In this document: positions 10,685 to 35,637 of the stretch, in pieces
How the letters are laid out: each line of letters opens with the position of its first letter
How positions within the stretch are numbered: position 1 is the first letter of the stretch
Source: Terebella lapidaria
Taxonomy: Eukaryota > Annelida > Polychaeta > Terebellida > Terebellidae
DNA: 64,000 bases
Assembly: GCA_949152475.1 (NCBI GenBank)
Contig: OX424565.1
Location: forward strand, 11,663,953-11,727,952
Direction of reading: 5' to 3'
The notes under the pieces: generated by a model
Told to the model about the DNA's origin: nothing
What the model saw: only the letters and a program-made list of their open reading frames with translations
Databases searched by the model: none
Translations under genes and position numbers: made by a program

Positions 10685-11337
10685 AATCAATAACGTCGAG
10701 TTAATATATTAAATTAAATTTCATATAGTTAAAAAAACAAGTAGTGATGTGGTCACTCTATGACTGCAACGTCTTTCGTAAGGTGCAGCTGTTTTGTAAC
10801 ACAGCTTTTCGGAATGGAATGAAATCATTCCAGACCGTTTCCCCATGAGAAATTGATGTCCACTGAAAACTAGATGCGTAATAGATCACCTTTCGGTCCG
10901 TAGTTGGTACCATGGAGACCACTCAGTTATACTAGAAAATACTCCGGGATATATCCCGCTGTTTTTCTATGCAAGAACGTATAGCATACGTAAGAACGCG
11001 TACACTCTTTGCAAGAATGCGTTCCGATCTACCACCGGGCATTTTTATTAATGGTTAATGTTTAACTCATATTCATTACGAAAAATCTGAAATATTTTCT
11101 AACTTATACAGAGATGGAGAAATTAATCCATATAACCACGACGATGAATAGAAAAAGAACCCATAGAAACCAGGAGTGAAACCTGGAACAGTACTGTTGT
11201 GTAAAATGTCACTTGTCCATTTTTTTCTTTTAGTGTGGCGACACCATACCTCACCTGTTTAGGTCCCATCAATTTCGAAAGTCGTTCGTTGCCTGGCAAC
11301 GTATTGTCTTTGCTCACTCAACTATGCTGTAACAATG

Positions 11338-11590
11338 GTCGTGACAGCACACCCTGACCCTCGCGCGCTGCTGGCTTTATAGCTAGCAGCCTGTCTAGTT
11401 TACTTTGAGTTGTCTCAGAGCAAGCGGTCGTGACATCACACCCTGGCCCTCGCGCGCTGCTGGCTTTATAGCTAGCAGCCTGTCTAGTTTCCTTTGAGTT
11501 GTCTCAGAGCAAGCAAGGCGAGAGGACGACGGTGAGCATGGCCATGCGCACCCATGCCCCTATTCCTGGCTAGAGGGTCCGCAAGGACCC
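11338..11590 (+). repeat. GC-rich SINE-like block with an 88-bp internal duplication
   Basis: GGTCGTGACA...CAGAGCAAGC occurs twice head-to-tail (11,338 and 11,426), followed by AAGGCGAGAGGACGACGGTG. It is much richer in GC than its surroundings. A related single copy lies at 12,928. Such abrupt GC-rich blocks adjacent to a tRNA-like segment (13.1 kb) suggest a SINE body; this is an inference. Confidence 0.55.
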
Positions 11591-11599
11591 TGGGGACAA

Positions 11600-11910
11600 T
11601 TCCAATTGGGTGATTAGGTACTTATGTACTTGTCATATATCTGTTCCATGGGGTTTGTTTCGGATTTCTAAATTATTTTCATAGGTTGTTGGGCAGTTGT
11701 ATACTAATGTATAATTGTATAATTCCATCAGGTGTACAGTAGAAACAACTACATTCAACACACTGTCTGCCCCTGATGACGCCAGTGTGTCTTTGGATAA
11801 ACTATCAAGTCGGACTTTGTTTATATTGCATAATGTTGTATTTTTCGCTTGTTATCGGCATCATCAAAATCTGACTGTATTAGTGGTAATATATTGATAC
11901 TTACATTTGA
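11600..11910 (+). repeat. Diverged copy of the 362-bp module
   Basis: Contains CATCAGGTGTACAGTAGAAA, the CACACTGTCTGCCCC hairpin and GGCATCATCAAAAT. It is an intact, uninterrupted version of the site into which the 15.3-kb transposon inserted at 13,883. Confidence 0.9.
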
Positions 11911-13875: not shown

Positions 13876-13883
13876 TGTACAGT
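13876..13883 (+). other. 8-bp target-site duplication, left copy (TGTACAGT)
   Basis: TGTACAGT lies immediately before the left terminus CACAGTCGC. The same eight bases follow the right terminus at 29,213-29,220. In uninterrupted module copies (for example 4,815 and 11,734) the site is present once, in GGTGTACAGTAGAAAC. Confidence 0.93.
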
Positions 13884-14172
13884 CACAGTCGCTTGTTACA
13901 GGGTGGGGGGGGGGGGGGGGTATCACCATGTAAAAAAAAAAAAAAGTTGTGAATCCTCGTTTTTGTTGACGTGGGCGATAATAGGCGAACGGAGTTTTAA
14001 ATGCATTCGAATTTAGTCTTGGGAGACAGCTGTACAACACACAATGCAGGAACTAGAAAAATGCGCTCACTTTCTCTCATCTAATAGCAAACAGGATAAC
14101 TTTAATCACCGAAACGATGTCCAACGATCGACTTTGTCTTTTAAACACCAAACTGGAAATCTGTCGGCAACG
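13884..14172 (+). repeat. Left terminal inverted repeat of the 15.3-kb transposon
   Basis: Starts CACAGTCGCTTGTTACAGGG, then a run of 16 G (13,905-13,920), TATCACCATG, an A run, and about 220 further bases. It matches the reverse complement of 28,928-29,212 to the base TCGGCAACG, after which the two ends diverge abruptly. The short frame starting QELEKCAHFL appears in both ends because it lies in the repeat. Confidence 0.95.
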
Positions 14173-15178
14173 TTGCAGCCCGCGGTGAATATATTTCTGA
14201 AAGGATCGTTCAGTAATTGTTATTCCGACAGGGAGCGCATCGTATTTCACTTGGTCACACGTGGGAGACGGAGTCAACACTGTTCAACATTTGATGCGCA
14301 AAGAATGGTAAATAAAAGAATTGCGTGACAGCCATGAAAAGTATATTTTTTTTAATATGTTACACATAGACTTTGTGAAGTCAAGTCCATGTAGATATGA
14401 GAATTTTTCGGCCATGAGTTCAGCAGTTTGACAGATGGGCCTATTACTGGCGTGGCATATCCAGGCAAGTTGTTTACGTTTTGGGCATTCTGGAGAAATA
14501 CTAGTAGACTTAACAATAAAAATAGTAAATGTACGTGTAGATCTACATTGCTATGTCATTCTAGAGCTAATTAAAATTAATCCAGCAAAGTTGTGTGACA
14601 GAAACGGGCATTTAACATTGGGATAGATAGCCACATTTTATCTCCGCTATGCCGAATGGCAGCGGAGTTTTAGTGATATCGTGTTGTCCGGTATAGGTCC
14701 GTCCAAACATTCTCAAGTTAGGGCCTGGAAAAGGCCCTCAAGTATGGTTTAAGCCGAAAGTTCAAATAGGGACCAGTTCAGTTGTCATTTTGGGGGCCAG
14801 TCGAGATATGACATTTAACATATGGAAAGGCCCTTAACTAGGTCTCATCCGCCTAGCCATCCGTCGTCGTCAAATTTTGTTATCTCTAAAGTTTACGGCA
14901 GAATCTTTCTGAAATTTTGCACAAAAATGTCTAAATATATTTAAAGAGGGAGGTATTTCTAGATTTTAGAAAAATTTTCCAAAATGGCGGCCATTTTAGA
15001 CAAAAAACACAACCCATTCTGGACTTCGGCAGACATTTTCAAGTCTAGTCAAATTTATTTCGACAGTTAGGGAATATAGTATTAATAAATGTAATTATAA
15101 ACGATTCTTATAACAAAATAAGAATATAACATTAAAATAAATGAAAACTGCCATTATGTAGTCCTAGAGTATTATAAG
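14173..15178. other. Transposon interior without recognised gene, with a hairpin-led repeat
   Basis: No coding region recognised. A hairpin CTCCGCTATGCC...GGCAGCGGAG at 14,642-14,667 is followed by text typical of dispersed noncoding repeats (CCGTCGTCGTCAAATTTTGT, then TCTGAAATTTTGCACAAA). It resembles in plan the hairpin-led element at 39.75 kb (CCCTCGCCCC...GGGGCAGAGGG then TCTGTCCG). Confidence 0.45.
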
Positions 15179-15235
15179 CACAGTCGCTTGTTACCGAGGG
15201 GGGAGGGTAATGCCACTGTGATTCTTCGAAGATAG
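15179..15235 (+). repeat. Solitary end of the same terminal-repeat family
   Basis: CACAGTCGCTTGTTACCGAG followed by a broken G run and GGGTAATGCCA matches the terminus of the 15.3-kb element and of the small element at 25,276-25,375. No partner end with a target duplication is visible, so this is either a relic or one end of an older nested element. Confidence 0.7.
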
Positions 15236-15606
15236 AACTTAGATATTGACACTTTCAAATGGGGAGTCATATGTGATAATACGTGTAATGACTTTGGATT
15301 TGACATTCTATGACCCTGAAAGATCAAAACGGCCACTTTATGTCAAACGTTTGGATCAAATTTGGAATTTCAACATCACTCTACCATTTGAACCCAGTGG
15401 AATGCTTAAGGCCGAGAGGTTTCTTGTTTGTTTATGAAGATAGATTCCCTACTACCGATATCCAGACAGTGGAGGGATTGATCAGAAGAAACCATACAAA
15501 ATTTAATCAATATCTGCTTTCGAATTTATGGCCGAAAAGTGAAATAACACATTTTTAAAGGGAAAAATATTTTGCAGTATTCAAATTAATTTGTTTCGTG
15601 TATATA

Positions 15607-15800
15607 TATTTACATTTAAGTATATGTGTGGCAGTACTGTGTTCTTTTTCTGCCCCCCCCCCCCCCCCCGGGGAATGGGGGGGGGGGGGCAGAAAAAGAA
15701 CACAGTACTGCCACACATATACTTAAATGTATATATATTTACATTTAAGTATATGTGTGGCAGTACTGTGTTCTTTTTCTGCCCCCCCCCCATTCCCCGT
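15607..15800. repeat. Triple inverted-repeat cluster with C/G runs
   Basis: A ~42-bp arm (TACATTTAAGTATATGTGTG then GCAGTACTGTGTTCTTTTTC) ending in a long C run occurs at 15,611 (plus), 15,689-15,731 (inverted, with a G run) and 15,740 (plus). The centre reads GGGGAATGGGG. The first two arms form a nearly perfect hairpin with a poly-C/poly-G tip. No coding content. Confidence 0.9.
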
Positions 15801-17803
15801 CACGTTTTGACAAGTAGCCTCCAGTTAGGTAGGCTCAATTATGAATACCATCATGCAGTAAGTCCAGAACGTATTGACGCAATTCATTTTAAATTTGTCA
15901 GTCGTGTTTAGATGGTGAAGGATAAGGAGCATGAAAAATTACGGACCGATATAATATCCAAGACGTCCACCATGTCTGGCAAACCAACAAATGTATAATG
16001 CAAATTTCTTGCTTGTGAGTACTCGTACTTCGAGTGTAAAGTACTGTAGTTATTTCCGAAGCCAGACGCTAGAATGTTTTCAGACATGATGGCTCCTTTT
16101 TTATCACTTTTTTTTGTCTAATCACAAAAAGACACGATTGTTCAAATTGTTCAATTTCATTTATAGATGACTTTCTATTCTCAAACATGCTGTATTCACA
16201 TACCCACGCAAAGAAACATGTACATGCACCTTATATATACACACGCAGATCGACGACAGATCAAGTAGACACATATATTTTGTTTGTGTATATAGTATAT
16301 ACCATGCAATATATTTTCTCAAGGAAATCCAGTCAGCTTCATCTCATCCAAATAACATTTTCATTTGATGCTACATTATGTATGATTCGTGCTTTCAAGA
16401 AAATCCAGTCAGCTTCATCTCATCCAAATAACATTTTCATTTGATGCTACATTATGTATGATTCGTACCACAAGTATACTTTTTGCAACACTCGAGCCAT
16501 ATCTTTGTACTGATTTTATTTACACCTTCCACTGTAAGCACTATGGTGATTTTGTGGGGATTTTGCACAAGTCTCGATATACAATTCTCAGTCTCGTGCC
16601 CATACATTTCTATGTTACTTGAATGGTATGAATGTTATTGAAAAAAAAACGTGTTTACTCACTTTGTACGAAATAAATTGCACGCAACCTCAAATCCACA
16701 TAAACAATTTCACATGACCCGCAACAACAAAATTACACAACAATTCCACACCACATATTGGCGCCACTGTAGCTTACCAATCTTAAGTCTTGACATAATA
16801 TTTACATTGCTGTGCCCGTACAATTGGATATGTCTTTAAAAGTACATGCACTTAGTTGAAATTAATCAACTATTATTCACTACATAGTACAGTGTACGGC
16901 CATATCTCGGTCGGTCCGTCGTAGAGCGAAACATACATTATTTTTGTACTCGTTGACCTAAACAAACATATCGAGTTTTGTCGGGTGAACTTCAACCTCC
17001 GCCTAGAAATTTCTGTGAGTCACAATCTTTTACATGTATATTTGCCAATCTTAGTACAGTGAAACTAATGGCGGAGATACATATGAATTTCAGTCGAAAT
17101 GTCCAAGGCATCTTTAGGCCTTTATGTCTAGTTTATAACGTACACTTAAAGGTAACAATATCAGCAAGACTATGCAAGTCTTATTCCTGAAATTTCCTGA
17201 ATGGAGATATGCACATCCATGGATGATAAATCGAGACATGGTTGTATAAAAAATATCACAAGAACTGTACAAATAGATGACTATAATAGATATCACTTTT
17301 ACACGCATCAGGAAAAAAACAACACGTCCAATCTTCAACTCTACAAACAAACTGCTGTTCGTACGTTTGTTGTGTGATAATATAATAATAGAGGAATATA
17401 CGACTTGGTTTACTGCGAGAGGAATACAATAAGCAAATTTGGTGCACCCGAGCGCAACTCACCAGTGAGCTTTACTAGCATTACCAGTTGCTCGCAGTAA
17501 AAAATGCAGCATGGGCATGTTTCTCGGTTACATTGATCCTTGATGGCTATACATGTATATCGCCCTGATATTCTGGTGCCAAATGGATGTTTGCAAATTC
17601 ATGATTTTGTTACCTTTATATTACATATATTATATTCCATATACGCGATTTTGTTACACATATGTATGCATTCAAATGTCAACACTTGCACACTGCATGT
17701 GAAAGCTATCTTCTCACATATTCCTCACATATATTCTCAACATCTTTCTCACACATTCCATATAACCTGATCTAACTCGGACCCCAGTTCTCAGTATTCT
17801 AAC
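15801..17803. other. Transposon interior without recognised gene
   Basis: AT-rich sequence downstream of the transposase. No domain-bearing frame was found. A 77-bp direct duplication lies at about 16,325-16,478. Confidence 0.5.
16325..16478 (+). repeat. Two tandem 77-bp copies
   Basis: AATCCAGTCAGCTTCATCTC starts at 16,325 and 16,402. Both copies run to TATGTATGATTCGT with essentially no differences. Confidence 0.9.
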
Positions 17804-18985
17804 TCAGTATTCCAATTTTCTTCTTCTCTTTGGCTGTGTTCGGAGCGGTCCGGGGGTTGTAAATTTATATGGGGCGGCCGCTTTTCCACCTCCACCAGTA
17901 TTCGACTTGGTTGAAATTGAGGGCTGGCCCATGACGATGCTGTTTATGTTGTAGAGATAGTTTTGCATCTGGGGATTCGTCCTGTTGCCACCTTGTATGC
18001 CTCGTTGTGAGCAGAAGAAATTTTCTATGATGTCACTGTTGATGTCGGCAGCGGGAACAGGTATGTTGTGCTCTGACAACATTCGCTCTACAAAATGCTC
18101 GAACCCCACGATCATCCAGCCGAGATCCTCTCGACACTCTGCAGACATCAGTTGTGACCTGCTCGATGTTTCCTCTTCCCAATGCATGAACCACTTCAGC
18201 ACATTCCGATTCTCAGTCAAGCGATGGTCATTCGTGCTTTCAAGGGGACGGGTATCCTTGAAGTTCTTGACAAGCACGGAAGTGTGCTTCAGGAATTCAA
18301 CAGAACCTTCCAACTCTGTAGCTTCGGTAGCTGGAAGGGATTCCTGGTAGCCTTGCATAGTGAGCAACATGCTCTCATTGAGGGTTTCTTCGGCATACTG
18401 ATTTCTCATTTTACCCTGCGTCGTAAGATATATGTAATCTTTCGTTAGCTTCTGGTGTGGTGCGACTGGATTCACATCTCTATTGCTGCACCAGGCCCAA
18501 GCATCCTCCCAGTGTCTCCAGATGATCTCCTTGCCTCCTTTCTTCATGAGACGTGTGTGTCCGGGGTCATGACCGCTGTTGAAGGCAGAATTACGGATTT
18601 TTTTAATCATGTGTGAAGGATCAGGGATGAAAGTGACCTTCTTCGAGGGGTCACTCCGATTGGGTGTGGTCAGCTTCTCTGTCAAAGGGTCGCCTACGAA
18701 CAACATCTTAACCAGCGATCGGTTGTTCGTTGAACCATCGAAAGAGATGTAGGTAGTCTCGAAGCCCCAGTCACTCAGGTTGCTGACAGCCGCCCATAGG
18801 TTGAGGTAGATATCACTGGCATTTGCCTGGTTTGTTGGGAAGCATGCGAATGGCATGCGATATCCCGTCATTCCATGGAATAGGAATTGCATGACATGGT
18901 CTGCAAGTGATAACTTGCTCTTCTTCTTTGACATGGCAGCCATTGCGTTCCCTCCCTCTCCCAGATCGCAGAGGCATACTATCTT
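17804..18985 (-). pseudogene. P-element-superfamily-like transposase, C-terminal half
   Basis: From its first methionine (18,943) the frame encodes 379 residues; it is also open upstream to about 18,985, reading WKIVCLCDLGEGG, which joins the preceding half. Family features: a strand with FDGS (Asp about 69) followed by PDPSHMIKKIRN (107-118), and near the end SDIIENFFCSQRG (Glu about 307) followed by GGNRTNPQM. These match the RNase-H-like catalytic core of P-element/THAP9-type transposases, where a distant Glu completes the acidic triad. The tail is basic (KRRRK), possibly a nuclear signal. It is separated from the N-terminal half by a one-base frame change. Identity comes from motif recognition, not a search. 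Confidence 0.72.
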
Positions 18986-20148
18986 CCATTCACCATCTTA
19001 GTTGAAATTTGGAGATCCTTCTGAATGTTCATTTCATCCAAGGCCAGACCCCCGACATAACCCGTTGCACTCAACCCAACCTCCTTGGCTTCCTTTGACA
19101 TCCATCTGAACATGTCTTTGTTCAGGCCTGGTTTCTGTGTTATACAGTTTTTGTAAAGTGACAGAGTTCTGGTCGATGGAAATATGTAGCCTGCTTTGAT
19201 GAGTTCCTGATAGCTTTGTGGACACCTCGACCAAAGGGTCAAAGATAAGCTGATCATTTCTTTCTCATAGCGTCTTCCACGAGGAGTCTTCTCTGCCAGC
19301 GAAATTTGCTCGGTAAGAAGAGACACAAGCTTCTCATTGTCTTGTAGCTGTGGGAAGAACTTGAGGAGAACCTCTTGTGTTGTTTTGAGAGGTGTTGTGC
19401 CAACCGATGCATCGCACACAACCGGCTGCGTTCTCAGTGGGGTTTGGGTTGAAGGTATGTCAGTTTTCCTTGTATCATTCCTGAACAACCTCTGACAATT
19501 TGTACAAATGTCACTCTGGCTGACAAGAGGCACGAACCCAGAACACTTGACTGACTGAATTCGTCTGGTAGAACTGTTTTCAATACCAGACGCACTCCAG
19601 TGGACTTTAGCAACAAGCTTTCCCTTGCCATCCGGTGTACTGGTTTCTTTACCGCGACACAAGCTGATACTTTTCAGGCTGCGGAACAAGGCTTGCACGC
19701 ATCGAACTGAGAGATTGGGTAAAACTTCCCATATTCCGTAGTCAGTTGGATTCATCACCTTTGTGCCAATGCTAACTTCTATATTTCGATTTCTCCATAA
19801 CTTGAGCTCCGGGAGAACTCGATTCCCTTGACAAACATAGGTGGTTCGAAAAGCAATCAATATGAACTCTTCACTCTTTTCCATGACAAACATGTCATCA
19901 AGCAAGTGATTTTGTATGTCACTAAATGCAATTTGTTGGTCGGTGCCTGCGTCTGTCGCTCTTAGTCCCATATACGTGCGTTGGTATTTCATCCAGTCTT
20001 CCTCACTGCGCACACGCTTTGGTTGAATATTCGGGAAGACAGTTCGAAGGACTTTTCCAAGATAGTTGATGTTGGCTTTTGTGTTATGGGCGACACATGC
20101 TGCAGTGTAACTGGTAAGAAGCTGAACTCCGACAGTTTGTGGGGCCAT
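18979..20148 (-). pseudogene. P-element-superfamily-like transposase, N-terminal half (frameshifted)
   Basis: 389 residues from the methionine at 20,148. A Cys cluster (C202, C215, C218 in FVPLVSQSDICTNCQ) suggests a zinc-binding knuckle. Residues 301-329 (LSLTLWSRCPQSYQ, then FPSTRTL) match the segment that precedes the catalytic core in P/THAP9 transposases. DEMNI (371-375) supplies the first catalytic acid. The frame ends in KMVNGR-stop, but the next frame continues the family pattern at once (WKIVCLCDLG), so one base is missing or a -1 shift is used near 18,980. No THAP zinc finger is seen at the N terminus, and only 330 bp separate it from the helicase gene. The whole protein would be about 780 residues. 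Confidence 0.72.
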
Positions 20149-20476
20149 CTCATAATTACTGTGTAACCTGTGAGGTTATAGAAAGTTGAGTTATATCCTT
20201 GTAATACTAGCATTTAAACAAATATCTACATGTATACAGCGTTCTATTAAAGAACTCCAATACATGTACTGTTTCGTAATGGGTGGCAGTATCGTGACGG
20301 TATTTTTTTAATCTATATAAAATCTGTTTTGAAAGTTTGGCTGGGATCCTGAATTTCTGTTTGAGAATTGTTTCCTTAGGTCCACTGATGGAAATGTGAC
20401 TGAATCATGGTGAGAAACTTTGTGGCTATCCTGCAAAATATTTTTCAGATATACTGATATTGATTTTTTTCAACAG
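20149..20476. promoter_or_regulatory. Divergent promoter region between transposase and helicase
   Basis: Both genes start here and run apart. A TATA-like CTATATAAAA lies at about 20,313. For the rightward gene, a good 5' splice site (ATG then GTGAGA, 20,407-20,415) and a pyrimidine-rich acceptor TTTTTTCAACAG ending at 20,476 suggest a small upstream intron (20,410-20,476). That would join an ATG in frame to the ATG used here. Promoter activity is inferred from the layout only. Confidence 0.5.
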
Positions 20477-22621
20477 ATGTCTGCACTAAATGAAAGACAA
20501 CGTGATGCTTTGGATTTGGCCAGGGAAGGGCACAACATCTTCATTACCGGAGGCATCGGAACAGGGAAGACAAAGGCTTTGCTGAATATTGTATCCGAAC
20601 TCGGGAAGGAAAATATGAATGTAGCAGTTACTGCATCTACTGGGCTTGCCTGTACACAAATAAAAGGTATAACAATGAAACTTTCGATGTGAGCAACCTG
20701 TTCACACCCAGTCATGTACGTAACACTTAAGCACGCCTGACAAGATCCCAAATAATAACACACACTTTCAATAGAGTCACGGACATGTTTTTCCAAAACA
20801 GATATATATTTCGTTGGATACCTGACCAACACGTGTTCAAATACTTTGCAACAGTTCTCTAAGTTAACGTTTTGAATATCATGGTTTCCAGGCTGTGAAG
20901 CGACAACACTCCACAAATGGGCTGGATTGCGAGACAATCGTTACAGCAATGCACAGCTGCTTCAACTTCTGCAGAATGACATAACATTCAAATCCGCACA
21001 ACATAATATACTGAATGTGGACACACTTATCATAGACGAGATTTCGATGGTTTCGGCCCGTGTGTTCTCTCAGCTGGAGTTTGTCTGTCGATCTCTAAGA
21101 AGAAATGGTAAAGTTTTTGGTGGGATCCAAGTTATAGTTCGTGGTGACTTCAGACAGCTCAAACCTGTACCTAAGCCACATTATAATGACCCAGGGCATT
21201 ATTGTTTCACAAGTGACGCCTGGAAGTCTGGCATAACACACACAATCATGATGGACAGAACAATGAGGCAAAGTGACCCACAGTTCATCAGAGCCATTTG
21301 TGAGCTTTCAACTGGCAACATCTCCACTGACTCATGTCATTTGCTGCAAGAACTTTCGAGACCACTAGATGAAGGTCCCCAACCAGTTAAGCTCTTTGCT
21401 CGCAACTTTGATGTGGAGATGGCCAACTATGATGTACTTCATGAAATGTCTGGACCACAGAGGGTATATCGAACAAAGTACACTGGTTCTAAAACACACT
21501 ATCCAAAGTTCCAAGCACCCAAAGTATTAGCTCTGAAGAAAGGTTGCAAAGTGATGTTGATAGTAAACCTGAGCCCACGTTTGGTAAATGGGACTCTAGG
21601 TATTGTTATTGATCTACTGGAGGAAAGTTGCGTTGTCGATTTTGAAGGGAGTGGCACACTTCACGTACAACCCTACCTTTTCACAGTGTATTCCCCTGAA
21701 CATAGGAAGGATGTCGCGACCTGTAAACAGCTACCTTTACGACTAGCCTTTGCTATCACTATGCACAAAGCACAGGGTATGAATTTGCAACGTGTGGTTG
21801 TAGATGCAAAACATGCAAGCAACCCTGGGCAACTTGCTACAGCTGTAGGACGTGCTACATCAAAAGATGGTCTGCAATTACTCAACTTTCATGCGGGAGA
21901 TGTTCCTAAACAACCAGAGTCTGTAAACGAGCTATACATGAAAAGCATACAACCCACTACAGCACTGGACAGCCATCATACATGTTGTAAAAACAGTATC
22001 GTTGAAGAGGCTGTCTTTGGATCAAGCAATGATGCAGAAGCATCAACGTGCGCTCAAGAAGCAGGTTGCTCAGAAGTTGTTGGCCCAAGTTGTGATCCCA
22101 CAGATGAGAATCATGACAGCTTTGATCCGGACAACATCAACTCACTTTTGGTCGGATTCGAACAACTTTGTAAATCAGATGCTCTGAATGAATTGAAAGT
22201 CGTACCATCTTGCTCTGATCTAGTTGATAAGTACACACTGCCAGACCTTGTGGACTTCGCAAAGTTGCGGAAAAACGTTCAGGATGATTTCATCACTGGT
22301 GAAACAAATGAACAGTTGCTACTAAAGCAAGCATATTCGTCAATAAATGAATCCCTTCTTCGCTGTAGCATGGGAAAACAGTGGGCTTTCTTTGAAGATA
22401 GTTTCAAATGCATGGAGACAAAGGGAAGAGGACGCTTAGAACACAAGGATTTCCAGACCTTTCTCATCAAGTGTGATCGTTACCTCGCCTCAGCTGCATA
22501 CCAGGAAGATATTATGATCATGTTTGGAACCGATCCCGGGCATAAAGGTCGAAGGTTAGCGTTCAAATATTTCTTAAAACTCCAAAACACTTTCTTGTCT
22601 TTCAAAGAAACAGAGTCCTGA
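20477..22621 (+). CDS. Pif1-family DNA helicase, spliced
   Basis: An SF1B helicase predicted to unwind DNA 5' to 3' with ATP. Exon 20,477-20,666 joins 20,892-22,621 in frame by removing a GT-AG intron (225 bp). This fuses QIKG to CEATTLHKWAG, exactly the motif Ia region of the family. Motifs: Walker A GGIGTGKT (25-32), TASTGLA, LIIDEISM (Walker B, Asp about 112), VIVRGDFRQLKPV (III), MDRTMRQ, ITMHKAQG (V) and TAVGRATSKDGL (VI). About 640 residues to a TGA at 22,619-22,621. A C-terminal region of roughly 200 residues after the helicase core is not recognised. Full motif set, so the ATPase core is intact. It is divergent from the transposase gene inside the same transposon. It is not a host PIF1 gene: it lies inside an element with matched ends and has an unusual C terminus. 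Confidence 0.93.
20667..20891 (+). other. GT-AG intron in the helicase gene
   Basis: Donor AAAG|GTATAA, acceptor TTTCCAG|GC. Removal restores one continuous frame across a conserved helicase motif. Without splicing the frame ends at 20,692 with a stop. Confidence 0.85.
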
Positions 22622-23542
22622 CCTCCTGCAGCTCCGGTTGAGAATGTCAATGTCACAGTGTCGCCCCAGTCAAACGCAGCCATACGTTACTTGGCAGGGA
22701 TGTGCTTTGCGAGGACTCACTACAAGCAGTGTACTGTGGCAATCAATAACATTCATAATCCCAAGGAAATAGCCACCGTGGTGCAAGCAAGAAAGCGAGT
22801 CACAATGCTAGAGCAGCACATTGTCAACCAAGAGAAGATACAGAAGACTTCCACGGAACCCAATACACTGGCAATGATCATGCGCAAGCAGAATCTAAGA
22901 CAGGGATTGACACATATTTCAGATGAGGTATTTCACTTCTTTCAGGATCTGGATAAGGAACTATCGCAGTGCCTGACGCGTGCAAACTTCCTACACCATC
23001 GTTCAAATCTATTTGTGTATGCTGAGCAAACTATAAGGGGGAAAAGCAGCTTATTCGACTCTTGGAAGGCTCTTTTTGTCGACGAAGATGACCATCGTTT
23101 CCAGGAAGATCTGATGTGCATGACTATTTCATCCTACATACATGTCCGATGTAATCAGTTTCGGAAGGATATGGTGGACCAGCTCAGAGACACCAAGTCG
23201 CTAGAAATTAGGAAAGCTGTCTGGAATGACAGAAGAACCGTAAAAAGAATTTCACCTGAAGAGCCTGCCAACAAAGGAAAAGTGGTGAAAAAGAGGAAAC
23301 AAAGCACAACCAATCTCCAGAAAAAAGTAAGAAGCATTGTGCATGTTGACACTGCTACAGATCCAAGTACAGATGATAACATGTGTCCTGTATGCAACGT
23401 CGTCTATGAAGATTTGAACTTTTGGGTGGGATGTGACAATGACAAATGTGCATCATACGTTTGCAGGAAATGTGCAGATCTGGAGGATGATGAAAAATAC
23501 AAGGAAGCTGTGGACAGTTACTGGACGTGCCCTCTTTGCTAA
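22622..23542 (+). CDS. C-terminal extension of the helicase with a PHD-like zinc finger
   Basis: The frame of the helicase continues directly past the TGA at 22,619-22,621. There are 12 open codons, then 294 codons from a methionine at 22,658, with no other stop until 23,542. The first part (IRYLAGMCFARTHYK) is helical and unrecognised. A basic linker (KKRKQ) follows. The last ~55 residues form a Cys-rich finger: CPVC, WVGCDNDKC, CRKC, YWTCPLC. This resembles a PHD finger (W before the Cys pair, W-x-C-x2-C at the end), but the usual His position is not obvious. Such fingers often read histone tails. It may be one protein with the helicase, interrupted by a single mutation, a readthrough product, or a separate short gene starting at 22,658. 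Confidence 0.7.
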   Translation, partial: PPAAPVENVNVTVSPQSNAAIRYLAGMCFARTHYKQCTVAINNIHNPKEIATVVQARKRVTMLEQHIVNQEKIQKTSTEPNTLAMIMRKQNLRQGLTHISDEVFHFFQDLDKELSQCLTRANFLHHRSNLFVYAEQTIRGKSSLFDSWKALFVDEDDHRFQEDLMCMTISSYIHVRCNQFRKDMVDQLRDTKSLEIRKAVWNDRRTVKRISPEEPANKGKVVKKRKQSTTNLQKKVRSIVHVDTATDPSTDDNMCPVCNVVYEDLNFWVGCDNDKCASYVCRKCADLEDDEKYKEAVDSYWTCPLC

Positions 23543-23618
23543 ATATGGGAATTCATGACCAATGTGTCGTCTTTTGTACATAACTACATAAATTTGATAA
23601 GCGTGAAAATTGCACACA

Positions 23619-23790
23619 GGGCGATTCGGATTGGGGTGAATAAGGTGTCTGAGCAAAAAGTACCCTCATGTACAGTTTAACATTGGAAAACATTGTATGT
23701 AAATGTACAGTTTTACGGGGGAATATCATCCTTTTAAATGTTTCAATGAGCGACGTTTTGCTCAGACACCTTCCCAACCCCGATCGCCCT
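23619..23790. repeat. Long imperfect hairpin downstream of the helicase gene
   Basis: GGTGTCTGAGCAAAA (about 23,643) pairs with TTTTGCTCAGACACC (about 23,754). Pairing extends outward through GCGATTCGGATTGGGG versus CCCCGATCGC and inward to TGTACAGTTT. It starts about 75 bp after the stop codon and would be in the 3' transcribed region. Confidence 0.8.
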
Positions 23791-24497
23791 GTAATGTATG
23801 CTATTTTAGATATATTTAAATGTATGTTTACACTAATAGGTTGGGGGGGGGGGGGGGGGTAGGGAGCGCCTCTGGACAAATTGAGGAAAATATCAGCAAA
23901 ATGTCTGAACACAACCCTTAGCAACCCTTAGCAACCAGTACAGGCATTGGAAACCAGCGATAATAGCACATAGTATACAATAGCACAATAGTATCGGTTG
24001 TTAAGGAGTGTTTTTGTACATTTTTTTGATCAATTACATAAAATATTGTCACTACCCGGTGATCTAAATTGGTTTGATACTTTTATGTCTTGTTTTAAAT
24101 TGAATACCAGCCATAGCAACCTGGTTGCTAAGGGCCAAATCAGCCAATTGGTTGCCATGGCAACTAAAATTGATATGCATTCACTGACTATTCCTACTGT
24201 ACAATATACCTGATAAGTTTTAGTGACCTAGCATAAGCTTAAATGCCTAATTGTGACTTATTTAAACACCTCATTAAAAAGCAATCTGTCAATGACGTCA
24301 CACATATTATTTGCATACTAATTAGCTGACAGATTTTTCAAGACTATTGGGAGAAATTTGCCAGATTTTCAATATTAAAATAGCTATAACTTTTTAACAA
24401 ATCGAGATATCAACATTCTGTAAAGACTGTTCTATTCAGCTCAACGAGTGGCTCCAAATAAAATAAAATCATATTTTCGTGATATATACCCTTTAAG
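23791..24497. other. No gene; contains a perfect X-box palindrome
   Basis: GTTGCCATGGCAAC at 24,151-24,164 is the canonical RFX-factor palindrome; 30 bases upstream is a weaker AGCAACCTGGTTGCT palindrome. A G run lies at about 23,843-23,859. No coding region recognised. Confidence 0.5.
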
Positions 24498-24730
24498 GCG
24501 CAGCGTATGATACTCGGGCCCTATTGGGGTATCTGAGTAGTTTGAGTTTTAAAATGAGTATTACGTAAGGGATAAGCGCTGAGGTGGAGCGCCTCTGTGA
24601 AAAAATCGACGACACCGTAGGTGTATGTTTGTTGGTCACCTGAATCACACATTGACGGCACGTGACTTCCAGGCCCTATAGTGAATATGATGGTGTCAAG
24701 TCGTTTCGGCCCAAGTATCATACGATGCGC
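24498..24730. mobile_element. 233-bp MITE-like element
   Basis: GCGCAGCGTATGATACTCGG at the left end and the reverse complement of the right end (GCGCATCGTATGATACTTGG) match over about 23 bases with three differences. A further related string (GCGCAATATGTGATACTTGG) lies at about 24,801. No coding content and no certain target duplication. Confidence 0.75.
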
Positions 24731-25275
24731 AATATTACTATTGAATGAGTGGTATTTAATCCATCTGTGACGTTTTTAATCCTCGTTGAATATAAAGAAG
24801 CGCAATATGTGATACTTGGACCCAAATGGCATACTCAGAAAAGCCCCAACGCACTGTGCGAGGCTTAAACATTTCCTTACTTCGTTAATGTTTACTGTCA
24901 AAGCAGTCAATTATGTGCGGATCGTTCTGAACAAGTTTCAATCGCGTAAGGATCTATAGTAGTCTATATTACCGGCAAGGGATCTTTTCATCCGTTTTTG
25001 AAATATCGACGATAGAATTTTAATAAAATGTGTACTAGACTTTATTTTCCAGATAGATCGTCGATTTCTCAATTATTTCGACGAATATTAAAAAGTAGGC
25101 CTAATTCCTTTGTGTGTGTATATACATATATGGCAAACGGCAATTTTCCACCAGATTTCAGACTTCTATCGCGAAAATGGCAAAAGTTGGCAATCGACCC
25201 AGAGTTTACAGTTTTAATAACGACCTGTACACTGAGTGAGGTTGACATCTCTAAAGATTTAACATAGGAAGATAC

Positions 25276-25375
25276 CACAGTCGCTTATTACCGTAAGGGG
25301 GGGGGGGGGGGAGAGAGGGTTATTGCCATGGTTTTTACCATGGTTGCCCCCCCCCCCCCCGGTAACAAGCGACTG
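25276..25375. mobile_element. 100-bp hairpin MITE sharing the terminus of the 15.3-kb element
   Basis: Left end CACAGTCGCTTATTACCG, right end CGGTAACAAGCGACTG, each followed inward by a 14-15-base G or C run and then GCCATGG palindromic text (TTATTGCCATGG / CCATGGTTGC). Flanks share GATAC(C) (25,271 and 25,375). It looks like a deletion derivative of the family of the surrounding transposon, mobilised by the same transposase. Confidence 0.8.
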
Positions 25376-25480
25376 ATACCGGCCGGTAGGCCTAAAGAAA
25401 ATTTGTAGACTGCCTGAGCCCTGCGTGGTGCGTTGTGATTATCTGGGCCTTTTAAAACATTTTTATAACTCGCCAACAAA

Positions 25481-27755
25481 GAAGTGGAAACGTGGGAGGG
25501 GTGGCTGCGGGAGCATTCTCTGAATTCATGTTGATATGATTTTGATTATCAGATTTGTTCAGATCATTCGCCTTGGCGTCTGAGCGTGTACGTTGTTCCC
25601 GCTCTTTTGCACAACCACGCCATGCGGTTATTATTAGACAAAAATTTTATTTATTATTATTATTATTAGACAAAATTTATAAAGCGCCCTATACAGTTTG
25701 AAGAAAAAACTGCTCTACGGCGCTGTACAAAAAGAATACATTTAAAAAAAAAAAAAAATAACAACATTGAAGTGATATGAAATAAAACTACAATAGTAAC
25801 ATTTACATGATTGACTAGCATGAACAATAAATAGATGTAAAATAGTGGGTTTTAAGTCTTTGTTTAAAAATTGATATGGATCTGGCATCTTTGATGGTGA
25901 GGGGTAAGCTGTTCCACAGCTGAGCTGCAGCCGCGTCGAATGCAATGTCACCCTGTTTGTACTGCCTCTTCGGGATGGTGAGAAGTCGCTGATCATAGTG
26001 AAGTCATGTCTAGAAAACGCCTCGCTCTCCGGACTGCCACACAGTACAATCGATAAATTACAGCGGGTACAAACACGGCGGCAAGTATCATAACGAGAAC
26101 ACCGCGTCGTGATCACATCACACTGATCCTCAAGGATCTTCACTGGCTACCTGTGATATTTCGCACCCAGTGTTAAGGTCCTGAGCATCACGTTCAAGGC
26201 GCACAATTATGGAATTATGGTTATGGAACACAATTCATGTCATAATCTTGATACTTGCCTGTAACTGGTAATTATAAGTTAATATTATACCAGATTTATT
26301 GAGCGTCATTTTCATGTGAAATACATGTTCAAAAGCCCTGTACATACATTGATAGTAGACATGATTAATAATTTCGTACATGACTAGAAATTACTCGATG
26401 GAATGAAAACACAATTCAGACACTAAAGTGACGTTATTGCATAAATAGATGCGCCTTTAAAAGTCTCTTGAAAGTGTTGGAAGTGGTTGCCTCCCGGATG
26501 ACACTTGGAAGGGCGTTCCACAATTTGGCTGCAAACACACTGAACCGTCGATCACCGTAGCTGACTCTCCTTACTTTGGGTACAACAAAAGTCAGAGTTT
26601 GCATGGATAGGTGAGGTGGAAGTGGAAACGTGGGAGGGGTGGCTGCGGGAGCATTCTCTGAATTCATGTTGATATGATTTTGATTATCAGATTTGTTCAG
26701 ATCATTCGCCTTGGCGTCTGAGCGTGTACGTTGTTCCCGCTCTTTTGCACAACCACGCCATGCGGTTATTATTAGACAAAAATTTTATTTATTATTATTA
26801 TTAGTAGACAAAATTTATAAAGCGCCCTATACAGTTTGAAGAAAAAACTGCTCTACGGCGCTGTACAAAAAGAATACATTTAAAAAAAAAAAAAAATAAC
26901 AACATTGAAGTGATATGAAATAAAACTACAATAGTAACATTTACATGATTGACTAGCATGAACAATAAATAGATGTAAAATAGTGGGTTTTAAGTCTTTG
27001 TTTAAAAATTGATATGGATCTGGCATCTTTGATGGTGAGGGGTAAGCTGTTCCACAGCTGAGCTGCAGCCGCGTCGAATGCAATGTCACCCTGTTTGTAC
27101 TGCCTCTTCGGGATGGTGAGAAGTCGCTGATCATAGTGAAGTCATGTCTAGAAAACGCCTCGCTCTCCGGACTGCCACACAGTACAATCGATAAATTACA
27201 GCGGGTACAAACACGGCGGCAAGTATCATAACGAGAACACCGCGTCGTGATCACATCACACTGATCCTCAAGGATCTTCACTGGCTACCTGTGATATTTC
27301 GCACCCAGTGTTAAGGTCCTGAGCATCACGTTCAAGGCGCACAATTATGGAATTATGGTTATGGAACACAATTCATGTCATAATCTTGATACTTGCCTGT
27401 AACTGGTAATTATAAGTTAATATTATACCAGATTTATTGAGCGTCATTTTCATGTGAAATACATGTTCAAAAGCCCTGTACATACATTGATAGTAGACAT
27501 GATTAATAATTTCGTACATGACTAGAAATTACTCGATGGAATGAAAACACAATTCAGACACTAAAGTGACGTTATTGCATAAATAGATGCGCCTTTAAAA
27601 GTCTCTTGAAAGTGTTGGAAGTGGTTGCCTCCCGGATGACACTTGGAAGGGCGTTCCACAATTTGGCTGCAAACACACTGAACCGTCGATCACCGTAGCT
27701 GACTCTCCTTACTTTGGGTACAACAAAAGTCAGAGTTTGCATGGATAGGTGAGGG
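25481..27755 (-). repeat. Tandem 1,138-bp duplication of LINE debris
   Basis: GAAGTGGAAACGTGGGAGGG starts at 25,481 and again at 26,619; the next 1.1 kb is nearly identical, with a few changes in the TTATTATTA tract. Each copy contains a LINE 3' tail (GCGCCCTATACAG, then TTATTATTATTA on the minus strand), the C-terminal LINE segment QGDIAFDAAAAQLWNSLP (minus), a small oppositely oriented LINE segment (DKLQRVQ, plus) and a second C-terminal segment. The very low divergence points to a recent event. Confidence 0.93.
26434..26667 (-). pseudogene. LINE reverse transcriptase C-terminal fragment
   Basis: Encodes YGDRRFSVFAAKLWNALP, then IREATTSNTFKRLLKAHLFM-stop. This is the typical C-terminal tail of CR1/L2-type non-LTR retrotransposon proteins (YGDRxFSxxAPxLWNxLP ... 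FKxxLKxHLF). Truncated at the duplication boundary; repeated at 27,572. Confidence 0.8.
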
Positions 27756-28480
27756 ACCAGGTGAGGAACCATATCCAGGTGAGGGACCATGTAGCGCCTT
27801 GAACGTGATGCTCAGGACCTTAACACTGGGTGCGAAATATCACAGGTAGCCAGTGAAGATCCTTGAGGATCAGTGTGATGTGATCACGACGCGGTGTTCT
27901 CGTTATGATACTTGCCGCCGTGTTTGTACCCGCTGTAATTTATCGATTGTACTGTGTGGCAGTCCGGAGAGCGAGGCGTTTTCTAGACATGACTTCACTA
28001 TCCCATTCACCAGTGACTTTGTGGCATCCTTGTTAGATACCTTCTGATGTGGGAAATGTTCCTCAGTTGGCCATAGCACTGTCGGCAAACACTGTGCACG
28101 TGGCGATCCATACTCATGGCAGAATCACTCCTAGGTTTCTCACATGTGGCACTGCAGTCACTTCAGTGTCTCCAACGCGGATGACACCATTATCCAGTTG
28201 CTTGGCGTTGTGTTTTGATGCAAAGAGCATAACCTCTGCTTTGTCGCTGTTCAACTTTAAGCGTTGGCGTGCATCTATGACTCAATGTCCGTCAGACACC
28301 TCTCCAGGAGTGCAAGTGCATCACTCTGTCCCATCCGGTCTTTGGGTTTAAATGACACATACAACTGCGTGTCATCTGCATAGAAGTGGCATGCCAGCCT
28401 GAAGCATTTGATGATGTTACCCAGCGGCTGAGAGTACAAGGTGTAGTATTTCGGGCCCAGTAACGCGCCGTGGGTACTCC
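27572..28480 (-). pseudogene. Degenerate CR1/L2-like LINE reverse transcriptase (3' part)
   Basis: Reading on the minus strand from about 28,480: GPKYYTLYSQPLGNII, then FYADDTQLYVSFKPKD (the YADD catalytic motif, about 28,366-28,386), KLNSDKAEVMLF, VRNLGVI, KDATKSLVNGIVKS, SGLPHSTIDKLQRVQ, LKDLHWLPVIFR, and finally FAAKLWNALP to a stop at 27,572. The order is that of the fingers-palm-thumb part of a non-LTR reverse transcriptase. Several stops and frame changes are present, so it is dead. The 5' half and endonuclease are absent. It lies inside the 15.3-kb transposon, next to the duplicated LINE debris, and shares its last part with it. Confidence 0.85.
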
Positions 28481-28927
28481 ATACTACACCAGGACATGCT
28501 CAGAGCACACACCGTCCTAATATAGTAACCTACAATATCTGAGAACGTTTATCAGTGTTTATACGTGCATGCGATACACAGTCATTATATGTATACTTAT
28601 TGAGAGCCTCAGAGCCATGATATGTGCATATAGCACAGAAGCACGGTCATTGCCATAAATCCACGACTTGATGGCGTGCCATATATCTGATGGTGCTTAC
28701 GGCGTTCCATAATTTCTAGTCACCCGATACATTTCTATCCAGATTGAAAAGAAAATGTTCATCAATACAAGTATTACTAACTATTTTTTCAGAAAGCCGC
28801 TCTTCCAACTATTTGAGCTTTTATGTACTTTATATATTTATTAATAGTGTTATAGTGTACACTGATATTTACTTTTAAACATATCACGTCTGGGGTATCC
28901 ATTCACTGCGTATTTAAACATTACTTC
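28481..28927. other. Transposon interior, no gene recognised
   Basis: AT-rich sequence between the LINE fragment and the right terminal repeat; no repeat or gene identified. Confidence 0.5.
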
Positions 28928-29212
28928 CGTTGCCGACAGATTTCCAGTTTGGTGTTTAAAAGACAAAGTCGATCGTTGGACATCAATTCGGTGATTAAAG
29001 TTATCCTGTTTGCTATTAGATGAGAGAAAGTGAGCGCATTTTTCTAGTTCCTGCATTGTGTGTTGTACAGCTGTCTCCCAAGACTAAATTCGAATGCATT
29101 TAAAACTCCGTTCGCCTATTATCGCCCACGTCAACAAAAACGAGGATTCACAACTTTTTTTTTTTTTACATGGTGATACCCCCCCCCCCCCACCCTGTAA
29201 CAAGCGACTGTG
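28928..29212 (-). repeat. Right terminal inverted repeat of the 15.3-kb transposon
   Basis: Reverse complement begins CACAGTCGCTTGTTACAGGG with a 13-base G run. It matches the left end with only two substitutions (AC to TT about 235 bases in) apart from homopolymer lengths. Confidence 0.95.
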
Positions 29213-29220
29213 TGTACAGT
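29213..29220 (+). other. 8-bp target-site duplication, right copy (TGTACAGT)
   Basis: Identical to 13,876-13,883 and followed by the right half of the interrupted module (GGAAATTACTATATTTTTTC, then CACACTGTCTGC). Confidence 0.93.
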
Positions 29221-29576
29221 GGAAATTACTATATTTTTTCACACTGTCTGCTTTTGATGACGCCAGTGTGTCTTTGGATAAAATATTCGGTCGGGCTTTA
29301 TTTCTATTCCAAAAAGTATATTATGTCTATTATTATTATCATCACCATCATCATCAAAAGTTTGTTGTATTGGTGGTAATAGGCCGATACTTGCATGCAT
29401 AGTAATTACGCATCTATGTACGCCCTTCATCAATATTCACTCCTGAATCAATCGGGATCCTAATAGATTTGTTTGAAATAGCCAGGCCGTTCATGATGTA
29501 GATCCTAGTATTTCTGGTACAGAAATGGAACACATTTTGCACTGCCACGGAAACGACCTTCATCAGTAATAAATTA

Positions 29577-30003
29577 TTTCTATATTCAAAACCTGAGATT
29601 GCATGTAGTCGGCATATATAATGAACCTGCTCTGAACTGACACGTATTGTGATGAAGTTATATAGTGCATATACATAAATGATAGCTTACTGGATAAATA
29701 TAGATAATTCGACATTATGTGATCTTCTGCGCTTATCAAAAATTCCAATGCTGGTGTTTAAACAATGAGACTAATATCGATTGATACACTTCTATATTCA
29801 AAACCTGAGATTGCATGTAGTCGGCATATATAATGAACCTGCTCTGCACTGGCACGTATTGTGATGAAGTTATATAGTACATAGACATAAATGATAGCTT
29901 ACTGGATAAATATAGATAATTTGACATTACGTGGTCTTCTGCGCTTATCAAATATGCGAATGCTGGTATTTAAACAATGAGACTAATATCGATTGATACA
30001 CAA
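29577..30003 (+). repeat. Two tandem ~212-bp copies of a unit segment
   Basis: CAAAACCTGAGATTGCATGT starts at about 29,588 and again at about 29,800. The same pair is present at 34,710-35,110, so the doubling predates the copying of the large unit. Single copies lie at 42,125, 50,950, 56,540 and 59,600. Confidence 0.85.
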
Positions 30004-30094
30004 TTAACCGGGTCAGAGTGAATGCAGTTCAATACAGTAGTTGTCGATGACACTGTACATCTCAGCGTGCCTGTATTCTCTATATATCTGTTCA

Positions 30095-30260
30095 GGACGG
30101 TGCTCCCGATAGGACATGACGAAAAACAAAACCTTTTCGTTCACACGAATTACTAGATCATTCACACGAAGTAATACATCGTTCAAACGAAGTAGTTTGT
30201 CGTTCACACAAAGTAGTAAGTAATTCGCACGAAGTACGAAATCGTTCACACAAAATGAAG
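30095..30260 (+). repeat. Minisatellite with an adjoining TIR-like motif
   Basis: ACGGTGCTCCCGATAGGACA is followed by five or more imperfect ~21-bp repeats of CGTTCACACGAAGTAGTAAGT type. The same arrangement recurs at 35,214-35,411, 42,414-42,570 and 51,240-51,440. The leading motif resembles the terminus of the foldback element at 44,944. Confidence 0.75.
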
Positions 30261-35000: not shown

Positions 35001-35637
35001 TAGTGCATAGACATAAATGATAGCTTACTGGGTAAATATAGATAATTTGACATTATGTGATCTTCTTCGCTTATCAAATATGCCAATGCTGGCATTTAAA
35101 CAATGAGACTAATAAAGATTGATACACAATTAACCGGGTCAGAGTGAATGCAGTTCGATACAGAAGTTGTCGAAGATGCTGTTAGTGTACCTATACTCCG
35201 TGTATATCTTTACACTACGGTGCTCCTGATAGCACATGATGAAAAACAAAACTACTTCATTCACACGAAGTAATACATCGTTCACACAAAGTAGTAAGTT
35301 GTTCACACGAAGTGGTAAGACATTTGCACCATCTCATTCTCACAAATTACTAAGTCCTTTGTATGAAGTACCGAGTTGTTTGCACGAAGTACTATGTCTT
35401 TTGCATATGAGTAATTAGTAGTTCCGTAATCTTATCACTGAAATCAGGTGAGAGACGTTTCCCGCAGTAACAAGAACAAACTTTATCAGTAATAAGTGAT
35501 TAAGAATATAATCAAAACCTCAGATTGTATGTAGTCGGCATTTATGAAGAACCTCTTCAGCACTGGCACACATTGTGGTGAAATTACAGAGTGTGTAGAT
35601 AAGAATATTAGCTTATTTAGTAAATATAGATACTTAC

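Follow-up and report, generated by a model that had tools for sequence, protein, structure and literature searches.

Does a transposon related to the P elements carry a helicase of its own, and do the two genes belong to one mobile unit? This question is raised by a 64,000-nucleotide stretch of the genome of the annelid Terebella lapidaria (assembly GCA_949152475.1, contig OX424565.1, positions 11,663,953 to 11,727,952; hereafter the window, meaning the whole stretch analyzed), in which a 15.3-kb element, copy A, holds a P-type transposase gene beside a Pif1-family helicase gene. We read the element, with a probability of about 0.72, as a member of a P-superfamily-related lineage of cut-and-paste transposons whose autonomous form would encode a transposase and a Pif1-family helicase on opposite strands, the helicase acting with the transposase. 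The evidence supports a P-related lineage that has its own helicase, because the 2 genes were adjacent at 46 of 49 loci of the host genome, 3 lineages carry them between defined ends, and further copies of the window family hold the same genes. The initial annotation of the stretch had assigned the helicase to the transposition machinery or to the maintenance of a new, large P-like lineage; the lineage is borne out, and the role of the helicase is kept here as a conditional one.

The borders of copy A were identified as follows.

13884..29212: whole transposon, copy A, 15.3 kb (matched ends, target duplication, empty-site join, and 2 near-identical two-ended copies elsewhere)
13876..13883, plus strand: left 8-bp target-site duplication, TGTACAGT
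29213..29220, plus strand: right 8-bp target-site duplication, TGTACAGT
13884..14172, plus strand: left terminal inverted repeat, 289 bp, first letters CACAGTCGCTTGTTAC
28928..29212, minus strand: right terminal inverted repeat, 285 bp
1180-1488, 1541-1850, 1905-2212, and 2267-2575: 4 host-repeat copies matching the empty site of copy A

The inverted ends, described initially as matched over 285-289 bp, were 97.9% identical over 289 columns, differing in the length of the poly-G and poly-A runs and by 2 mismatches, and the reported 8-bp duplication is exact on both sides. Fusing the flanks with a single TGTACAGT yielded one unbroken host-repeat match of ~300 bp to the 4 window copies at 70-71% identity. 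Because the fused flanks recreate a continuous host-repeat match, copy A is an insertion with exact borders, and the claim of an exactly interrupted host repeat holds. Repeats resembling the flanks, tandem and dispersed, occur at window positions 1180-2575, 11291-11906, 29213-30212, 34342-35316, and 50612-51354 with ~68-96% identity, and the target of the transposon was one such copy.

The first gene encodes a transposase.

17804..20148, minus strand: P-related transposase gene, no intron seen, one frame break near 18990 (open reading frames, frame check, PF21787, PDB 6p5a, and homologues)
19960..20118, minus strand: RFX-like winged-helix region, residues 11-63, with a weak PF02257 match (E 1e-3, below the Pfam cut-off)
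18023..18025, minus strand: codon of the presumed catalytic Glu (SDIIENFF), a conserved motif followed by 72 residues, its position worked out from the residue number

Coding runs from 20148 to 17804 in 2 overlapping frames, which places one frame break near 18,990. Profile searches of both proteins, proposed at the outset, assigned P-type RNase H (PF21787) to the joined transposase (E 1.8e-14) and PIF1 (PF05970) to the helicase. PF21787 was found in all 15 aligned transposases (alignment A1, comprising the window protein and all 14 homologues first found; of 5 later ones, only P0136 was used) and in each of the 9 transposases scanned at other loci, and the alignment profile matched the Drosophila P transposase structure 6p5a in the PDB (E 5.2e-8). 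The motifs DE(M/A) and DG(S/G/A) were present in all 11 rows and (S/T)D..EN in 10, that is, in every row covering the site; we take their D, D, and E to be the catalytic residues known from the P literature. RFX_DNA_binding (PF02257) reached E≤1 in 13 of 15 alignment members (best 4.3e-6) and E≤0.1 in 3 of the 9 other transposases, and the profile gave weak winged-helix matches in the PDB (MarR-type, best E 0.024; RFX5, 0.026; RFX1, 0.12). The P helix-turn-helix PF12017 was identified in 6 of 15 aligned sequences, and the GTP-binding insertion domain PF21788 was weak and below the cut-off (E 0.017 in the window protein, 1 of 15 members, 0.041 in L055). THAP domains had no Pfam match in the 15 aligned transposases or in the 9 from other loci. 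Thus, of the P/THAP9-type label first given to the protein, the P-type part is retained, and the THAP9-type part gives way to a weak RFX-like winged helix.

The second gene encodes a helicase.

20477..20666, plus strand: Pif1-type helicase exon 1, Walker A GGIGTGKT, PF05970
20667..20891, plus strand: GT-AG intron
20892..23542, plus strand: Pif1-type helicase exon 2, with an in-frame stop at 22619-22621 in copy A only, not in copies B or C
22661..23227, plus strand: family-specific C-terminal domain (IRYLAG...RKAVWN; alignment A3 and profile match), without a Pfam family
23384..23539, plus strand: C-terminal eight-Cys PHD-like finger, read from the sequence and aligned with relatives

The spliced Pif1-family helicase that had been proposed is upheld by the 2 exons, the GT-AG intron, and the PF05970 match (E 2.9e-30), together with Pif1 2B (PF21530, E 6.6e-8), an AAA match, and LIIDEIS (Walker B) besides the Walker A motif. 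A weak DEAD match (E 7e-4) was below the cut-off, PIF1 being the top match. An additional 5' exon is possible. The start codons of the 2 genes are separated by 328 bp in divergent orientation. The finger was correctly called PHD-like in its spacing; by eye, a Cys takes the position where His is usual, and Pfam PHD was not reached in the window protein. Among 27 aligned helicases (alignment A2, the window and 26 homologues from 120 listed of 2069 matches), Pfam PHD appeared at E≤1 in 10, and it was below the cut-off in L052 and L054. Searches of the C-terminal domain against PDB and Pfam gave nothing convincing. This domain has a YLAG and GLT..SD pattern, which to our eye resembles the C-terminal parts of P-type transposases; its possible equivalence to the C-terminal domain that the P transposase here lacks found no support in PDB or Pfam.

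We analyzed the linkage of the 2 genes across the host assembly (761.6 Mb, 438 contigs). As transposase query we used P0001, an ENA protein with 58% identity to the window transposase; it gave 56 rows at E≤1e-10, merged by position into 49 loci, a lower bound since scoring covered 55 of 310 first-look candidates. The helicase probes were the C-terminal 306 residues (49 loci) and the motor part (75 rows). Relatives of the 2 genes, whose adjacency elsewhere the initial annotation had singled out as decisive, lay within 10 kb of each other at 46 of the 49 transposase loci with either probe (C-terminal 42, motor 44, both 40, neither 3), and in 3 lineages they stand between ends with 8-bp duplications. 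The chance expectation for the C-terminal probe beside a transposase was 0.07 loci. The nearest helicase was on the opposite strand in 42 of 42 cases, and none of 50 motor rows near a transposase was on the same strand. Gene order by nearest feature was divergent at 32 loci, as in the window, and convergent at 14, so the divergent pair noted initially describes the window and not a general rule. These 49 loci are not 49 independent events, because many are near-identical copies.

As a control, the PF21787 profile was used to collect the 150 best-scoring P-type domains of 496 candidates, 0 of which lay within 20 kb of the 49 loci. With either helicase probe, C-terminal or motor, none of the 150 had a match at a distance of up to 10 or 20 kb, and within 50 kb the C-terminal probe matched near 2 and the motor probe near 1. 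Beside the two-gene lineage, the host genome thus holds a large P-like population, its further P-type RNase H domains numbering at least 150 and lying in frames of up to 820 codons. Further, 25 motor rows lay more than 10 kb from any transposase match. The 18 weakest had E 4.7e-10 or weaker and 30-32% identity, and 16 of these 18 were in frames of 1,655-2,368 codons; we presume these 18 matches to be Helitrons. The other 7 included a lineage-3 helicase at C3 (13 kb away) and 4 rows accompanying C-terminal matches that lack a transposase match.

Two further lineages with both ends were identified in the host genome.

C17:28147727-28161024: lineage 2 copy, 13,298 bp, duplication CACAAAAC
C8:10251905-10264892: lineage 2 copy, 12,988 bp, duplication AGTTCACA
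C4:17310225-17321395: lineage 3 copy, 11,171 bp, duplication TTTGTACA
C6:1319464-1330078: lineage 3 copy, 10,615 bp, duplication GATTTTTG

The lineage 2 transposase is 36-37% identical to P0001, with an 802-codon frame open at 5 loci, and the ends (255-258 bp, 98.8% identical) start with CACAGTGGCTCG. Its helicase was recognized by the C-terminal match, a motor match with one TGA inside, and BLASTP to the family; the helicase piece had no Pfam match at E≤0.01. Lineage 3 is convergent at 6 loci, with main transposase pieces 53-65% and 2 N-terminal pieces 40% identical to P0001, 838-codon transposase frames that are open in 2 copies (L027, C4; L029, C13), and ends of about 341-349 bp that are 99% or more identical and start with CACAGTCACATG. 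Its helicase encodes PIF1 and Pif1 2B domains, the motor match having one stop at C4 and none in several other copies, and no PHD-like finger was seen in the listed frames. All 3 lineages have CACAGT at the element tips, and an 8-bp duplication was found in 7 of 7 two-ended copies tested (A, B, and C; C17 and C8; C4 and C6); at C4, a reading of 9 bp is possible as well because the element end begins with C. The lineage 2 tips, CACAGTG (C17:28147727, C8:10251905), have what we take to be the letters of the recombination signal sequence heptamer and of Transib ends, a likeness that is probably coincidence or convergence of tips, since the duplications here are 8 bp.

Within the window family, the left end of copy A gave 65 matches in the host assembly, among them 2 more two-ended copies.

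C1:90375064-90386778: copy B, 11,715 bp
C1:27875723-27897974: copy C, 22,252 bp (L023-L025), with an ~8.3-kb nested insert
25481..27754: 1,138-bp tandem duplication in copy A, its unit matched once in copies B and C
25276..25378: short nested foldback unit inside copy A, with the same end motif as the element

Copies B and C have exact 8-bp duplications (CAATAGTC and CAGAAGAA, respectively), and their long segments are 96.9-99.5% identical to copy A, with one segment of copy C at 94.9%; retained gene segments of the family are 98.6-99.5% identical. Copies with the same ends had been proposed as a check for a different transposase; B and C carry the same 2 genes, whole or in part, between the same ends, and the family therefore moved as a two-gene unit. 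In copy B, the second helicase exon is open over 886 codons. Almost all of helicase exon 1, as well as the N-terminal three quarters of the transposase, has been lost from this copy in a deletion that shows 5-bp microhomology and fits interrupted gap repair. Both genes are present in copy C, each interrupted. Its nested insert is bounded by a 5-bp repeat (copy A positions 17377-17381) and is perhaps a long terminal repeat-type element. The 15.3-kb length of copy A, which is itself defective, counts in the tandem duplication.

Among the remaining left-end matches was one incomplete copy, on C11 and 83% identical; most of the others were short and confined to the first ~57 bp. Both ends were found at 8 distinct places, and 7 of these hold short foldback derivatives with window-family ends, 100-148 bp long and flanked by exact 8-bp duplications. 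Of 13 loci inspected (L008-L020), 3 were without an end pair and 2 were repeat matches of the same place, leaving 8; where several end pairs were possible, the pair with the fewest mismatches was kept, and at L010 no exact 8-bp duplication was found. In 4 of the 7 (L009, L011, L012, and L014), the duplication is TTGGTACC in either orientation, which could reflect a target preference or insertion into copies of one host repeat. Elsewhere in the window, 45528-47513 on the minus strand holds a 661-codon open frame that we take, by eye and from its motifs, to be a putative Penelope-type reverse transcriptase; a near-identical piece adjoins the transposase in L046.

Homologues of both proteins were found in ENA, JGI, and other sources, and proteins of bivalves (Mytilus, Pinctada, Saccostrea, and Ruditapes), several of them under the name PIF1, belong to the wider helicase family. 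The pairs P0004/P0024 and P0136/P0017 probably share contigs of 1,911,965 and 7,629, to judge from the equal sizes of their contigs. A transposase-profile scan of viral contigs and prokaryote genomes returned 61 and 66 pattern-matching stretches, respectively, none encoding a relative. Trees were built from 11 transposase/helicase pairs with a C-terminal helicase piece (L066-L068 included), covering 9 host-genome lineages and 2 external ones, the latter paired by equal-size contigs. The maximum-likelihood trees of the transposase and of the helicase C-terminal domain agree except in the placement of L045, which has weak support in both (52 and 51), sharing the order of a group of copy A, lineage 3, and the first external pair, then the second external pair, a clade of lineage 2 with L045, L047, and L050, then L055, and then L052 with L054; several inner nodes of the helicase tree are poorly supported (46, 49). 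A Mantel test over the 11 pairs gave r 0.61 (p 3e-4, 20,000 permutations). Gene order is convergent in lineage 3, L052, L054, and L055, and the order therefore changed while linkage held.

How far do these observations fix what the lineage is? There is a real, if lesser, chance that it is already catalogued in Repbase or Dfam as large P elements with the helicase left uncommented. The many copies in the host genome speak for this, and against it, among the papers listed, no title or abstract opening describes a P-type transposase with a Pif1-type helicase or with an RFX-like domain.

It is unlikely, though worth more weight than the explanations that follow it, that the helicase is a retained passenger serving the element outside transposition, in evasion of host defence, replication timing, or copy maintenance. 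Our observations consist of linkage and co-diversification, helicase-less foldback derivatives have moved, and some family helicases have no transposase match within 10 kb, all of which suit a passenger. That the genes adjoin at 46 of 49 loci and never on one strand, that their trees match, and that the helicase was near 0 of 150 other P-type loci all agree with a role particular to this lineage of transposases, and are compatible with a passenger as well.

Several points weigh against a helicase that acts with the transposase. Its participation in transposition is what we infer from linkage and co-diversification. Both genes are damaged in all 3 copies of the window family. Speaking for the main reading instead, lineages 3 and 2 keep a transposase frame open over 838 and 802 codons, respectively. 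Ratios of nonsynonymous to synonymous substitution rates between copies were 0.61-0.82 for the helicase, not significantly different from neutral, with few changes and damaged copies, and 0.14 and 0.36 for 2 parts of the transposase (A versus C), likewise not significantly non-neutral. The RFX match was below the Pfam cut-off in the window transposase and was not reached in 6 of 9 other-locus transposases, one of these 6, L055, lacking the N-terminus. No helicase match was found within 10 kb of 3 of 49 transposase loci, and 43 of 49 C-terminal helicase loci had a transposase match within 10 kb, leaving 6 of 49 without one. Of these 6, 4 have an adjoining motor match, and helicases without a recognized transposase partner therefore exist. 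Since foldback derivatives exist, the helicase is not needed in cis. The 4 partnerless helicase loci of the family at which a motor match accompanies the C-terminal one (C13:8280960, C13:329531, C13:34528152, and C7:8508622) are either solitary or have a partner transposase too diverged for the query.

A relic of a self-synthesizing or giant (Maverick-like) transposon, or a viral integration with a P-type integrase, is very improbable: the long inverted ends and a replication-type enzyme would suit it, and the 8-bp duplications do not, nor was any polymerase- or capsid-like frame noticed by eye among window-element frames of at least 100 codons, 6 of which, or their neighbours, were Pfam-scanned, related elements not having been systematically searched. 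Least probable of all is chance nesting of a helicase-bearing element, such as a Helitron, inside a P-like element, for although Pif1-type helicases are known as part of Helitrons and 18 weak Helitron-looking Pif1 matches occur in the genome, adjacency far exceeds the expected 0.07 loci, the long-frame matches lie more than 10 kb from transposases at 30-32% identity, and both genes lie within their own ends in 3 lineages.

For a P-related transposon with a built-in helicase, the following mechanism is proposed. The first protein, about 770-840 residues long, would be a transposase that combines an RFX-like winged helix at the N-terminus with a P-type RNase H core, expected from the P literature to bind, cut, and join the element ends. 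The second would be a Pif1-family helicase of superfamily 1 (SF1), whose C-terminal domain is particular to the lineage and is often accompanied by a PHD-like finger, working with the transposase in trans, during or after cleavage; the finger may tether it to chromatin. Pif1 helps long repair synthesis, and we put forward, tentatively and with more doubt than confidence, that the helicase drives long-tract repair synthesis at the donor gap, by which a 10-13-kb element would be copied back after excision. This role is favoured because it would be weightiest for elements of 10-13 kb and because copy B resembles an aborted repair product; alternatively, the helicase may unwind or remodel the ends or the transpososome. 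In Drosophila, the host pathways that repair the donor break of a P element include one with the Bloom helicase homologue (PMC7776569).

A broader proposition, possible and somewhat short of an even chance, is that the Pif1-type helicase, together with its unassigned C-terminal domain and PHD-like finger, is the obligate, co-evolved partner of the RFX-type P transposase across animals, in an organization like that of RAG1-RAG2, and lets 10-13-kb elements be copied back or pass through a helicase-dependent step that is not known from any P element. The lineage has kept a Pif1-type helicase over deep divergence, now on one side of the transposase and now on the other but never on its strand, and thereby offers a testable case for a built-in helicase step in P-type transposition, and side-by-side genes in many related elements suggest a two-part transposition machine. 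The RFX-like domain suggests an alternative to THAP, the lineage may account for part of the bivalve genes annotated as PIF1 as transposon genes, and its members provide open-frame copies for study.

P elements are a founding model of DNA transposition and need one self-encoded protein and host repair factors; to our knowledge, both the P element and THAP9/Pdre2 encode the transposase alone. With the Drosophila P element and zebrafish THAP9/Pdre2, the present lineage shares a P-type RNase H transposase (PF21787, 6p5a), DDE, and 8-bp duplications. In the available portions of 2 sources, P and Pdre2/THAP9 elements have ends of 31 or 13 bp, 8-bp duplications, and, for the P transposase, a THAP domain (PMC7776569, PMC10983969), whereas here the ends measure about 255-349 bp, the domain is RFX-like, there is a second gene, and the elements are 10.6-13.3 kb long where no large insert was noted.

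Helitrons, of which Pif1-type helicases are a part, encode a Rep/HUH-helicase fusion and are without long inverted ends or target duplication. The elements described here have the Pif1-type helicase in common with them and differ in their long inverted ends and duplications, Rep not having been sought separately; the Helitron-like Pif1 matches of the host genome are only 30-32% identical to the element helicase.

The RAG1L-RAG2L transposon has a RAG1-type transposase and 5-bp duplications; RAG2 has a PHD finger and is not a helicase, and the heptamer of the RAG system is CACAGTG. As here, there are 2 opposite-strand genes including one for an accessory protein, and the part of the source available gives their order as convergent (PMC7204232). 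AcademH, of the Academ superfamily, resembles the present lineage as a DNA transposon with its own helicase and differs in its transposase, as far as the citing papers describe it. The AcademH helicase belongs to superfamily 2 (SF2). According to portions of those papers, AcademH duplications are 9 or 10 bp (PMC10045372), and DEAD and Helicase_C are tied to AcademH/KolobokH, PIF1 being given for a group of AcademH, KolobokH, or Helitron without assignment within it (PMC10799480). In our elements, the best Pfam match is PIF1 and not the DEAD/Helicase_C or RecQ of the SF2-type AcademH/KolobokH helicases, and the duplications are 8 bp and not 9-10 bp. KolobokH, in the portion of the source available, has a RecQ helicase and is reported from fungi only, and Kolobok-1_CCri encodes its helicase on the strand complementary to the transposase (PMC9587614); both combine a DDD/E transposase with a helicase, as here, but with a Kolobok transposase and RecQ. 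Helicase-bearing DNA transposons such as AcademH and KolobokH are thus already known, and what we take to be new is a P-related lineage that carries Pif1.

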